From assembly GCF_947166265.1 (NCBI RefSeq), contig NZ_CAMVDO010000002.1, forward strand, positions 124,001 to 188,000: 64,000 bases of DNA, given 5' to 3'. This DNA is from an uncultured Fibrobacter sp. (GTDB lineage Bacteria; Fibrobacterota; Fibrobacteria; Fibrobacterales; Fibrobacteraceae). Below are positions 13,956 to 17,122 of the stretch, piece after piece; position 1 is the first letter of the stretch, and each line of letters opens with the position of its first letter. Under the pieces are notes generated by a model. That model was not told the origin of the DNA, did not search any database, and saw nothing but the letters and a program-made list of their open reading frames with translations. A program made the position numbers and the translations under genes.

Positions 13956-14272
13956 GGGGCATATAAATTCCGCAAAACGTAACCGCTTATATGCCCCTTT
14001 TCGCAAAACACAAATAAATTAATACCATTTTCATTCACATTTTCAACCAAGGGGCATATAAAAAACTCTAAACAGATCAAATTATACGCCCCCATACCAA
14101 TCCCCAAATCCATATTCTCCAACAAACGCTCAAATGGGGCATATAAATCTTCCCAAAGGCAACCTCTTATACGCCCCACCATCATTTTTTCACCTTTACA
14201 GCCATCGAAAAATCCCTGCAAAATGAAAAAGGGGCATATAAAACATCTCAATACCACATTCTTATATGTCCC
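13956..14272. repeat. Array of four 42-bp inverted-repeat units
   Basis: Four units start at 13956, 14051, 14136 and 14231. Each is exactly 42 bp: GGGGCATATAAA, a 19-bp unique centre, then TTATATGCCCC or a one-base variant (TTATACGCCCC in units 2 and 3, TTATATGTCCC in unit 4). The left arm is identical in all four. Unit-to-unit spacing is 95, 85 and 95 bp, close to whole helical turns. The 19-bp centres and the 43-53-bp gaps do not match each other. This is most of the 683-bp gap between purA and the next gene; the rest is AT-rich with no evident gene. Its function is unknown. Confidence 0.9.
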
Positions 14273-14391
14273 ACCCCCTAAAAACACCCATTTTCACATC
14301 TTTCCTAACGATATCGTTATAAAAAATTGCCTTTAGGCCCGCCCTTCCCCTTCTGATTTTTGTATATTGTAAGCAAATAGTTTGTTATATC

Positions 14392-14430
14392 GCCACGAAG
14401 GAGTGCAACTCCTCGTGGCTTTTTATTTTT
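14392..14430 (+). terminator. Intrinsic terminator just upstream of the nuclease-like gene
   Basis: The stem GCCACG-A-AGGAGT and ACTCCTCGTGGC pairs over 12 bp with one bulged A and a 3-nt loop, followed by TTTTTATTTTT. It ends 13 bp before the next start codon, with a TATATT box at 14363 upstream. It may end an RNA from the repeat array or attenuate the downstream gene. Confidence 0.8.
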
Positions 14431-14443
14431 CAACAGAGGAATT

Positions 14444-15265
14444 ATGGAAAACAATCAAAAAATAGTGAACCGTTCGCCAATCATAACCGCCCTTCAAGAA
14501 CAAACGGACATCTATCAAAACACCCTGGACAACCTAACAAAGAAACTTCGCAACGCACCAAAGGAGACCCTAAGGGTTCAACCACACAAGAAATCGTTTC
14601 AATATTACATCGTCACGCAAAAGGGCGACACGAAGGGCTCGTACCTTCCCCGCAAAGAAATTCGCAAGGCAAAAGCCATTGCGCAGCGAGACTACAATGA
14701 AGCGGCGGCGGCCATCATCAAAAAGCAACTTGCGGCCATCGACACATTCCTCAGGGCATATCAGCCCAACGCACTCGACCAAGCCTTCACCGGGCTGCAT
14801 CCGGGCCGCCGCGCACTTGTGACGCCCGTGCGAGAACCAGACGACGAATTCATCGCCGCATGGCTGCATCATCCTTATACGGGTAAGCCCTTCGAAATCA
14901 ATGCCCCCGAATTCTACACCAGCACGGGCGTGCGCGTCCGCTCGAAATCTGAAGTCATTATCGCAGACGCGCTCAGTCGCGCTGGCATTCCCTTCCGCTA
15001 CGAATACCCCACAAGCGTCAAGGGCTGGGGTACGCTCTACCCCGATTTCACCTGCCTCGACACGCGCACCCGCGAAGAAATCATCTGGGAGCATTTCGGC
15101 CTTATGGGCGACCCGGACTACACCGAAAGCACCGTTCAAAAAATCGCCCACTATACCGCCAGCGGCTACACCCTCGGCAAAAACTTCATCGCCACCTTCG
15201 AAAACGCCGCAAGCCCGCTCTCCGTCAAGCAAGTGCAGGCATACATCAAGTCATTGCTGATGTAG
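14444..15265 (+). CDS. PD-(D/E)XK nuclease-like protein of unknown role
   Basis: A 273-residue soluble protein. The N-terminal half is helical and basic (TLDNLTKKLRNAPK, LPRKEIRKAKAIAQRDYNEA). The C-terminal half has the order of a PD-(D/E)XK fold: RSKSEVIIADALSRAG (Glu170), LYPDFTCLD (Asp201) and EIIWEHFGLMGDPDY (Glu216, with His where Lys is common). From memory, similar unnamed proteins are frequent in gut Firmicutes, which would suggest transfer, but no search was run. A ribosome site (AGAGGA) precedes the ATG. An intrinsic terminator and a four-unit repeat array lie directly upstream. A nuclease acting on nucleic acid is inferred from the motifs only. Confidence 0.75.
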   Translation: MENNQKIVNRSPIITALQEQTDIYQNTLDNLTKKLRNAPKETLRVQPHKKSFQYYIVTQKGDTKGSYLPRKEIRKAKAIAQRDYNEAAAAIIKKQLAAIDTFLRAYQPNALDQAFTGLHPGRRALVTPVREPDDEFIAAWLHHPYTGKPFEINAPEFYTSTGVRVRSKSEVIIADALSRAGIPFRYEYPTSVKGWGTLYPDFTCLDTRTREEIIWEHFGLMGDPDYTESTVQKIAHYTASGYTLGKNFIATFENAASPLSVKQVQAYIKSLLM

Positions 15266-15322: not shown

Positions 15323-17122
15323 TTATTCTGAATCCTTGAGACAGCGGATGCTGCCTAACTCATTTTTTTCCGTAGAGTTGAGACGTGCTTTTTCTCCATA
15401 TCGATCGTTGACCGAGGCCCCATCCATAGATAGCCGGTAGGCCAACGTGGAACCATTTTCTGTAGAACTCCAAAAAAAAGCTCGATACATGGTCGTTCCA
15501 TCATTATAGTGGTAATAGCCGGTAGGAATCACAGAAAATCCGTATGTGTCATCTCCATTGCCAATGTCACCCCATCCGCCTTGCGATTTAAGATATTTGC
15601 CACCACGACTTATGTATGAAGAATTGTCGAAACCGTAAGACATGTCTATAAACCGGAATAGCGCATTAAATTCATCTTGACTGGGAATATGCCACCCCTC
15701 AGGGCAGATACCTTGGGGCGCACCGTTCGTCGCAGCCGCCCAAGTGTAGCGTTGTCCATGCACGGCACAATCACCAGCAGTTAGCGAATCGATAACCCCG
15801 CCACCGCACAAGATTGCACCCTTGAGACTTGGGGATTCCGCACTGTCGGCATAGTTCAGATTCTGAGCCATCCATGTTTGTTCACCAAGCCTTATGGTCT
15901 TATAGACTTGATCATCACGTTCGTCAAGGAATTCGCCGTAGACTAAATCTTTGTTCAAGTAAGTTGCAGATGCAGCGTATTTGCATTTGTGGCCTTCAGG
16001 GCAGTTGGCGGCATAATAGCCATCTTCCTTCACTCCTGCGGGGAATCTCTCGTCGATAAAAATATCATCGGGATCATAATCCATGAGACACCTAAGAGCG
16101 TGTTCTCCTCCACGCGCATAAGAATTGTCCATTTTTGACTCTGTCAAATTGAATTCAATACTGCTCAATTCACGATTACCACCAGGGTTATAGATAAAAT
16201 AACTTGCAATTTTGTTGCCATAATACATGGCACCTTTGTCATTGGCGTACATGGTAGAATCGCCTACAGCATTTTTAAAGTCTAAAAAATCGCTCCAAGT
16301 CGGAATATGCCAACCCTTAGGACAAAGGCCTCGTCTAAACAGAGGATTTACTTCCTCAAACTGCCTTGCGGAATCAAGGGCCTGCGCCTCGGTATATGTA
16401 GATTGGTTACTGCCGTATTTGTAATCCAGATCGTGCGCCATCCACACTCTAGTATATTTCTTAAATTTTTCAGTTTTGTTGACGGTAAAGGTTTGGGACA
16501 AATTGATCGTCAGAGTCTTGTAGGTCCGATTGTCACGCAAGTCTGTGAGCGAGTTCGTTTCAGGATCGTACACACTATTGTCGTCTTTGGGTTGTTCGAT
16601 GCGATTGTAGCAGTAATTTTTCTTCTTGGATTCAAGATCCATGTAAATATACCAGTCCCACTTTTCAAGATCTACATCATAATCGCATAGGAAAACATCG
16701 TCCGTTGGGGTGTAGTAGGCACGGGTACAAGCGAGTTCCTGCGTACAGGCGATTTTGTCAGACATCTTACTCCAGCAGAAATCCCAACTGCAGGCTACGT
16801 CTTTATTTACAGAAGAGGATGACAAGCTCCCCTTTCCGCTAGATGATGACTTTGCCGATGTTGAACTCGGTTTTGTCTGATCCTCGGACTCAATCCATTT
16901 CTCACCATTACACTCGTAATTTAGCTCAACATCCGATACATATACTTTCTCGCCCTTGACATCCATATTGCAGGCATAGGTTCTCAGTTCGTCTTTGTCG
17001 GCAACACTTCGGTCCGTTGCGGCAGAACTAGAATCCCCGCAAGCCAATAGCGTAAGCGTGGTTAACGCAACGGCACACACCAAGCATTTCCTTATCGTCA
17101 TTTTCATAAAAAATTCAAACAT
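15323..17122 (-). CDS. Lipoprotein with two FISUMP domains
   Basis: A 599-residue lipoprotein with lipobox LLAC (Cys28 from the first ATG) and a Ser/Lys-rich linker around residues 85-105. It then has two copies of the Fibrobacter succinogenes major paralogous domain (TIGR02145). Copy 1 includes TRVWMAHDLDY and CPKGWHIPTWSDFLDF. Copy 2 includes YKTIRLGEQTWMAQNLNYA, ICPEGWHIPSQDEFNALF, FFWSSTENG and a final SIRCLKDS. The domain is abundant in Fibrobacter, is thought to be surface located, and has a fold related to FGE-like domains; its role is not established. ATGs at 17107 and 17101 are alternative starts. The first copy is more diverged. Confidence 0.93.
   Translation of the reverse strand: MFEFFMKMTIRKCLVCAVALTTLTLLACGDSSSAATDRSVADKDELRTYACNMDVKGEKVYVSDVELNYECNGEKWIESEDQTKPSSTSAKSSSSGKGSLSSSSVNKDVACSWDFCWSKMSDKIACTQELACTRAYYTPTDDVFLCDYDVDLEKWDWYIYMDLESKKKNYCYNRIEQPKDDNSVYDPETNSLTDLRDNRTYKTLTINLSQTFTVNKTEKFKKYTRVWMAHDLDYKYGSNQSTYTEAQALDSARQFEEVNPLFRRGLCPKGWHIPTWSDFLDFKNAVGDSTMYANDKGAMYYGNKIASYFIYNPGGNRELSSIEFNLTESKMDNSYARGGEHALRCLMDYDPDDIFIDERFPAGVKEDGYYAANCPEGHKCKYAASATYLNKDLVYGEFLDERDDQVYKTIRLGEQTWMAQNLNYADSAESPSLKGAILCGGGVIDSLTAGDCAVHGQRYTWAAATNGAPQGICPEGWHIPSQDEFNALFRFIDMSYGFDNSSYISRGGKYLKSQGGWGDIGNGDDTYGFSVIPTGYYHYNDGTTMYRAFFWSSTENGSTLAYRLSMDGASVNDRYGEKARLNSTEKNELGSIRCLKDSE

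Follow-up and report, generated by a model that had tools for sequence, protein, structure and literature searches.

The window, i.e., the whole 64,000-nucleotide stretch of DNA that was analysed, contains a gene for a 273-residue protein with a predicted PD-(D/E)XK nuclease domain, preceded by an array of spaced, inverted half-sites; comparable arrays, mostly with other half-sites, accompany homologous genes and are dispersed through Fibrobacter genomes. Our best reading, in which we have roughly even confidence, is a nuclease–array system working in a REPIN–RAYT-like manner, with sites that are double-stranded and helically phased and with an unrelated enzyme, a PD-(D/E)XK nuclease. Cognate pairing of protein and array, helical phasing, an A/T wave, dispersal of the arrays, their presence or absence at orthologous places, switching of specificity at one locus, and conservation of the catalytic residues were all evident in the sequence comparisons described below.

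Table 1. Features of the array–nuclease locus, in window coordinates.
Feature	Position	Strand	Remark
Array unit 1, GGGGCATATAA-N20-TTATATGCCCC	13956..13997	no strand	
Array unit 2	14051..14092	no strand	95 bp from unit 1
Array unit 3	14136..14177	no strand	85 bp from unit 2
Array unit 4	14231..14272	no strand	95 bp from unit 3
Promoter-like box TTGTATATT	14360..14368	+	holds TATATT at 14363-14368; recurs before close homologous genes
Intrinsic terminator	14392..14430	+	hairpin at 14392-14419 and T-rich tail; precedes the gene, after the promoter-like box
AGAGGA, likely ribosome-binding site	14435..14440	+	
Gene for the 273-residue array-associated PD-(D/E)XK protein	14444..15265	+	
Beta-hairpin, residues 42-57	14567..14614	+	covaries with half-site
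PD-(D/E)XK nuclease domain, residues 156-273	14909..15262	+	E170, D201, E216, H217

The elements named in an earlier, sequence-only reading of this DNA, namely, four repeats, a TATATT box, a terminator hairpin, a ribosome site and the open reading frame, were all located where it had placed them (Table 1), and the module does sit, as it had said, between housekeeping genes. The four 42-bp units match the consensus GGGGCATATAA-N20-TTATAYGYCCC exactly, and the whole array lies 5' of the promoter-like box, for which a generic sigma-70 scan gave no call at 14360. No Rfam family matched the window at the gathering threshold. According to our own reading, a hairpin followed by a T-run also precedes the start codon in ten out of 15 close homologues, the hairpin sequences being different. 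The adjoining gene (15323-17122) encodes a Fib_succ_major domain (PF09603, two matched stretches), and genes of this kind also adjoin five other homologues of the 273-residue protein.

The array is not confined to this locus. With the gap fixed at 20 bp and at most three mismatches, its unit is found 21 times in its own 3.77-Mb genome, distributed over nine places, while the reversed pattern, used as a control, gives no match; when gaps of 8–33 were permitted, the half-sites were separated by exactly 20 bp in 105 of 115 matches. Given the 21 genomic matches against none for the reversed control, and the constancy of the gap, a chance origin of the pattern is excluded. The same unit is present in 12 out of 41 Fibrobacter genomes searched, its own genome included. 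The sequence-only reading thus understates its case: the array is one of nine genomic places, and the arrays of homologues differ in sequence.

No family in Pfam or NCBIfam matches the window protein, PHROGs yielded weak matches only, and searches of PDB sequences returned no relative. Neither the ToxN/CptN/TenpN families of Pfam nor transposase families match it or occur among the top families of 82 members; together with the conserved PD-(D/E)XK residues, the former agrees with the earlier remark that the protein is not ToxN-like. Relatives were found in 23 of the 60 genomes searched, all of one genus, and a scan of GTDB genomes produced 582 relatives with a wider distribution, in Fibrobacter, Treponema, Lachnospiraceae (including Butyrivibrio) and other Clostridia, 80 of which were retained for study.

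The proposal of a PD-(D/E)XK-like fold, made from Glu170, Asp201 and Glu216, is borne out by conservation and appears to agree with the model. Among 82 aligned homologues, E170, E216 and H217 are kept in 82 each, and D201 in 81; we take these conserved E, D, E-x-H residues to be the active-site motif of EDxHD/Vsr-like nucleases. One homologue (L116, G001:C20) carries Asn in place of Asp201 and retains a four-unit array, being a natural catalytic variant. The AlphaFold model of the window protein is confident (mean pLDDT 94.5), and its C-terminal half aligns with I-Bth0305I (3r3p; VIA Z 8.7, 89 residues, 2.6 Å), Bax1 (Z 8.2), TnsA (Z 7.9) and Vsr (Z 6.7) in a mutually consistent manner, although Z values of about 8 can be common. 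Foldseek alone gave no match to the model at E ≤ 0.001. In 82 out of 82 members, the nuclease domain matches the C-terminus of PDC-S68, a PADLOC candidate phage-defence family; for the window protein, residues 159–271 correspond to positions 1102–1218 of the 1221 in that profile, and nothing more is matched. The HEAT_CxxC_PDDEXK profile matches 27 of the 82.

The N-terminal domain, when folded alone, also gives a confident model (pLDDT 91.7), for which no match above Z 3.3 was found among the chains compared; its strand-strand-strand-helix order may resemble that of the arm-type/AP2-like DNA-binding domains of integrases. In ten close relatives, residues 1–41 are only 12–44% identical to those of the window protein, compared with 76–84% in the nuclease domain. 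There is no conserved partner gene, 193 neighbouring open reading frames falling into 152 clusters, the largest with six members. Relatives in phages and plasmids are few, and most of them match the nuclease domain alone. A helicase-like open reading frame of more than 600 residues is joined to this nuclease domain at one locus (L038, G014:C3:308385-308639), and the plasmid matches resembling this fusion are annotated as AAA ATPase or RecQ. Four Butyrivibrio-type homologues (L188, L193, L210, L237) are all preceded by one common gene, which by eye we take to be guaA (GMP synthase); both guaA and purA, the neighbour at the Fibrobacter locus, are purine genes, perhaps by coincidence.

The sequence-only reading suggested comparing the neighbourhoods of homologues, such that homologues without upstream repeats would separate protein from array. 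This comparison mostly went in favour of the association: under a single criterion, an upstream array of at least two units is present at 76 of the 101 homologues examined (48 out of 56 in Fibrobacter and 28 out of 45 elsewhere), and 25 have fewer than two upstream units. The array, the promoter-like box, the terminator and the gene for the nuclease-fold protein make up one module, as had been supposed, and this module recurs. The arrays share a common architecture and differ in their half-sites (TTACATACT, GTACCTATAA, ATGCATATAA, ACGGACTAAA, TGCTACTAAA, TACCGGCAAAA, and many others), the specificity being different between nearly every paralogue. Shuffled upstream sequences contained arrays in none of 80 cases. 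The control on downstream sequences gave six matches in 80, i.e., one run of N and five real arrays, and hence is not a false-positive rate; two of these five (L170 and L194) share the half-site with their upstream array, and copies on both flanks of the gene are seen at L170, L194 and in G028. In one branch, whose proteins are longer, with about 313 residues (L186, L192, L203), the array is situated 3' of the gene rather than 5' (TGGCGGTGAAA).

The spacing of the units follows the DNA helix. Start-to-start distances cluster at 53, 63, 74, 85, 95, 106, 117, 127, 137, 148, 159, 170, 180, 190, 200 and 211 bp, and the period scan returned 10.55 bp for arrays of the GGGGC type (R 0.945, n=77), 10.55 bp for other Fibrobacter types (R 0.925, n=84), and 10.50 bp for other phyla (R 0.83, n=59); dispersed arrays with three other specificities, measured automatically as a set of their own, again gave 10.55 bp (R 0.912, n=94). 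Base composition oscillates likewise. In units located at genes, A/T makes up a fraction of 0.85 at the dyad, 0.33–0.38 at five bases and 0.87–0.88 at nine bases, and the oscillation at 10.5 bp extends across loops and linkers. With half-sites masked, the A/T power at 10.5 bp in Fibrobacter is 2.40 vs 0.31 in controls, and 39 of the 48 arrays exceed the 95th percentile; the corresponding values for other phyla are 0.80 vs 0.25 and eight of 26 arrays. Mispaired arm positions on the sense strand comprise 24 G–U and 16 A–C, so that no selection for pairing as RNA is clearly apparent in the arms. The arrays are phased DNA, probably wrapped, rather than an RNA antitoxin.

Which part of the protein might read the half-sites was addressed by mutual information in 70 non-redundant protein–array pairs. 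The top pair links Q53 to the base located 17 bp from the dyad (z 7.6), H48 reaches z 4.3–5.4 with bases 16–19 bp from the dyad, and the 15-residue bin 46–60 has the highest mean mutual information. The signal for F218 with base 12 (z 6.0) we take as one of relatedness. Q53 is paired with C in 37 out of 47 cases, N48 with T at 19 in 12 out of 12 and with A at 18 in nine out of 12 (one undetermined), and H48 with G at 18 in nine out of 11. When overall similarity was removed by a partial Mantel test, residues 41–50 (1/200 permutations) and 46–55 (0/200) ranked at the top, with small effects (partial r 0.13 and 0.11, respectively). The covarying residues constitute a beta-hairpin in the AlphaFold model. 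At the level of sequence, cognate pairing of protein and array is well supported, and the protein very probably reads its own array.

The purA–moxR locus is common to related genomes and shows five specificities. Arrays of the GGGGC type are found there in the window genome, G018, G030 and G016, and G036, whose purA piece and MoxR are, respectively, 100% and 99.6% identical in protein sequence to those of the window, has GTACCTATAA. The moxR side is shared by G006 (TTACATACT), G001 (ATGCATATAA) and G019 (GTACCTATAA), and the purA side, within the stretches compared, by G028 (ACGGACTAAA) and G033 (GGGGC). Seven GGGGC units persist in G028 although its sole homologue belongs to the other type, and in G013 (a 77% complete genome) purA adjoins moxR, with one remnant unit and no nuclease. 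Orthologous intergenic places carry arrays of unlike type in two genome pairs, G000/G036 and G018/G019. In G021, ACCTATAA units and one GGGGC-like unit are combined in phase within a single array; these few cases may represent type replacement, with independent insertion as an alternative.

Gain and loss are also seen away from the gene. One array of the window genome, on contig 28 between two convergent genes, i.e., between two stop codons, is absent from the orthologous place in G036, G029, G005, G010 and G003, and at the one empty site aligned for it we found neither a target-site duplication nor a clean element boundary. Within the gene before this array, about 112 bp (L066 4130-4242) are missing from aligned orthologues, due to either an in-gene insertion or a deletion. 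Possible signs of copying are empty sites and duplicated arrays, with no boundary or target duplication. In ten pairs of arrays, half-sites are identical at 566 of 593 positions (95%, a value biased upwards by the location of units by motif in one partner), compared with 75–80% for loops (403/536), linkers (706/904) and flanks (2712/3386), which suggests constraint on the half-sites.

Dispersed arrays of four specificities occur in Fibrobacter, and such arrays are also present in Treponema and Butyrivibrio. Units of TTACATACT number 26 in G006, 11 in G036, nine in G019 and eight in G061; GGACTAAA units, 28 in G032, 18 in G028, and seven each in G009 and G023; ACCTATAA units, 47 in G036, 29 in G060 and 21 in G019 (G060 and G061 are outside the set of genomes searched for the protein). 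One Treponemataceae genome has 12 units on three contigs, and one Butyrivibrio genome, eight on five contigs. Dispersal is not universal: two Butyrivibrio genomes have two exact units each, and the second copy in the window genome (TTACATACT) has no units beyond its own three. Judged by half-site type, dispersed arrays mostly match the nuclease of their own genome. In G019, TTACATACT arrays are present (C6, C16, C29, C70, C102), yet the sole homologue found has a GTACCTATAA array, so these are either a fossil set or the trace of a missed gene. Near-perfect GGGGC arrays are kept in G032 and G013, where no GGGGC-type nuclease was found; slow decay and another reader fit these orphans equally. 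The longest dispersed array seen, with seven GGACTAAA units and near-identical loops (L282, G032:C2:173676-174389), apparently grew by local duplication. Comparison of arrays from different loci gives about 70% identity, for which common descent is likelier than independent chance origin of the sites; as most are only that similar, no recent burst of copying has been caught, local duplications aside.

The closest analogy in working is offered by REPIN–RAYT systems, which have been described as domesticated transposases, inherited vertically, by which matching palindromes are duplicated. As outlined in that account, they share with the present system a DNA-processing enzyme encoded on the chromosome, matching palindromic elements beside its gene, and copies dispersed intergenically (PMC8049555). 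Inheritance in place, in the outline given there, is a further likeness, seen here for the purA–moxR locus in related genomes, the clade examined in most depth. The differences are that the enzyme here is a PD-(D/E)XK nuclease and the RAYT a tyrosine HUH transposase; that half-sites are double-stranded, 31 bp apart and set in multi-unit phased arrays, in contrast to the single-strand hairpins of REPINs; and that half-site specificity varies among paralogues to the extent described above. With enzyme, sites and half-site variety all different, the nuclease–array system is not a member of REPIN–RAYT. The E-D-E-x-H residues, and probably the modelled C-terminal fold, are those of EDxHD/Vsr-like nucleases (I-Bth0305I, Bax1, Vsr, TnsA), from which the window protein differs by its own N-terminal domain and its cognate phased arrays; we know of no such arrays for these four. 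The C-terminal nuclease domain is likewise common to PDC-S68 and the RecQ/AAA fusions, but those profiles span about 1200 residues, and the window protein has 273 and is array-associated. Our literature searches, covering titles and abstract openings of open-licence papers, found no published description of this nuclease–array system.

In the nuclease–array reading, the protein would be a PD-(D/E)XK nuclease that binds DNA sequence-specifically, with the array serving as the cognate platform for its binding. The N-terminal beta-hairpin would read the outer bases of each half-site, and dimers would span a unit, made of two half-sites three helical turns apart. Two to seven units in register would present one face of bent, A/T-phased DNA, on which many copies of the protein may assemble, the DNA wrapping around the multimer. 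The array beside the gene probably controls its promoter, and the leader terminator probably keeps nuclease expression low. At the system level, the most likely role is that of a vertically kept, domesticated nuclease with cognate arrays as dependent, occasionally copied elements: the nuclease would help arrays to copy or convert, copies would spread through intergenic regions, and after a change in protein specificity new arrays would spread or old ones be rewritten, some remaining as fossils. It is thus a prediction that the protein binds, wraps and cleaves DNA, controls its own expression and drives the copying of arrays; the cellular role, likewise predicted, could lie in mobility of the arrays, chromosome architecture or defence.

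A possible though unlikely alternative is that the protein has mainly an architectural or regulatory function, wrapping intergenic arrays and insulating or tuning their neighbours, so that the host keeps the arrays and cleavage is secondary. The strict helical phasing, the nucleosome-like A/T periodicity across loops and linkers, and the half-site constraint all agree with it, as do unlike arrays at the same intergenic place (G000/G036, G018/G019) and the mixed in-phase array of G021. However, near-invariant catalytic residues (82, 81 and 82 of 82) would be needless for a pure organiser, specificity turnover is hard to reconcile with a housekeeping one, and the genes next to 75 dispersed arrays (34 codirectional, 26 convergent, 15 divergent) show no promoter preference. 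Rather improbable, in our opinion, is a defence or guard function, in which chromosomal arrays hold or aim the nuclease, an invader that degrades or titrates them triggers it, and specificity changes are the footprint of an arms race. The PDC-S68 (82/82) and HEAT_CxxC_PDDEXK (27/82) matches, hypervariable specificity at a fixed locus, and a leader terminator suggestive of tight expression speak for it; but the profile matches are confined to the shared C-terminal domain, the 193 neighbouring frames (152 clusters, none above six) include no conserved gene, and phage and plasmid relatives are few, most by the nuclease domain alone.

We regard as quite improbable a chromatin-like identity code, where in each bacterial lineage the nuclease forms wrapped complexes, similar to nucleosomes, at the dispersed arrays belonging to it, protein–array pairing serves as a self-label that can change, mismatch or loss licenses cleavage, and specificity is rewritten together with dozens of sites. 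A plain autoregulated DNA-binding protein, with the upstream array as operator and dispersed arrays as ordinary regulon sites, is highly improbable: gene-linked arrays are indeed upstream in the great majority, before the promoter-like box, but arrays are gained and lost between relatives, and 26 of the 75 dispersed ones lie between convergent genes, e.g., that of contig 28, for which reason plain regulon sites were rejected.

In type III toxin–antitoxin loci, RNA repeats that follow one another contiguously and head to tail are transcribed ahead of the toxin gene. The suggestion that the present repeats are likewise transcribed into an RNA inhibiting the nuclease is hardly credible: the order of repeats, terminator and nuclease gene is that of ToxIN and others, but here a DNA array of spaced, inverted units lies 5' of the promoter-like box, 10.55-bp phasing over 53–211 bp would be meaningless in RNA, arm mispairs have no clear strand bias (24 G–U vs 16 A–C), arrays are scattered without the gene, and the protein is not ToxN-like. 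Thus, of the sequence-only reading, the module, the probable nuclease fold and the housekeeping flanks stand, the type III comparison finds no support, and the immunity cassette that it also named is a possibility.

If binding is confirmed, the nuclease–array system would be a widespread, as yet unnamed family, present in three phyla of gut bacteria, whose nucleases co-evolve in specificity with numerous sites in the genome. It would provide a natural, readable recognition code with dozens of protein–site pairs (e.g., Q53–C, N48–TA, H48–GG), a model of how specificity can switch while function is retained, and a system in which to ask why a nuclease is kept by bacteria that have its sites in their own chromosome, as well as a second, independent case for testing ideas developed on REPIN–RAYT.
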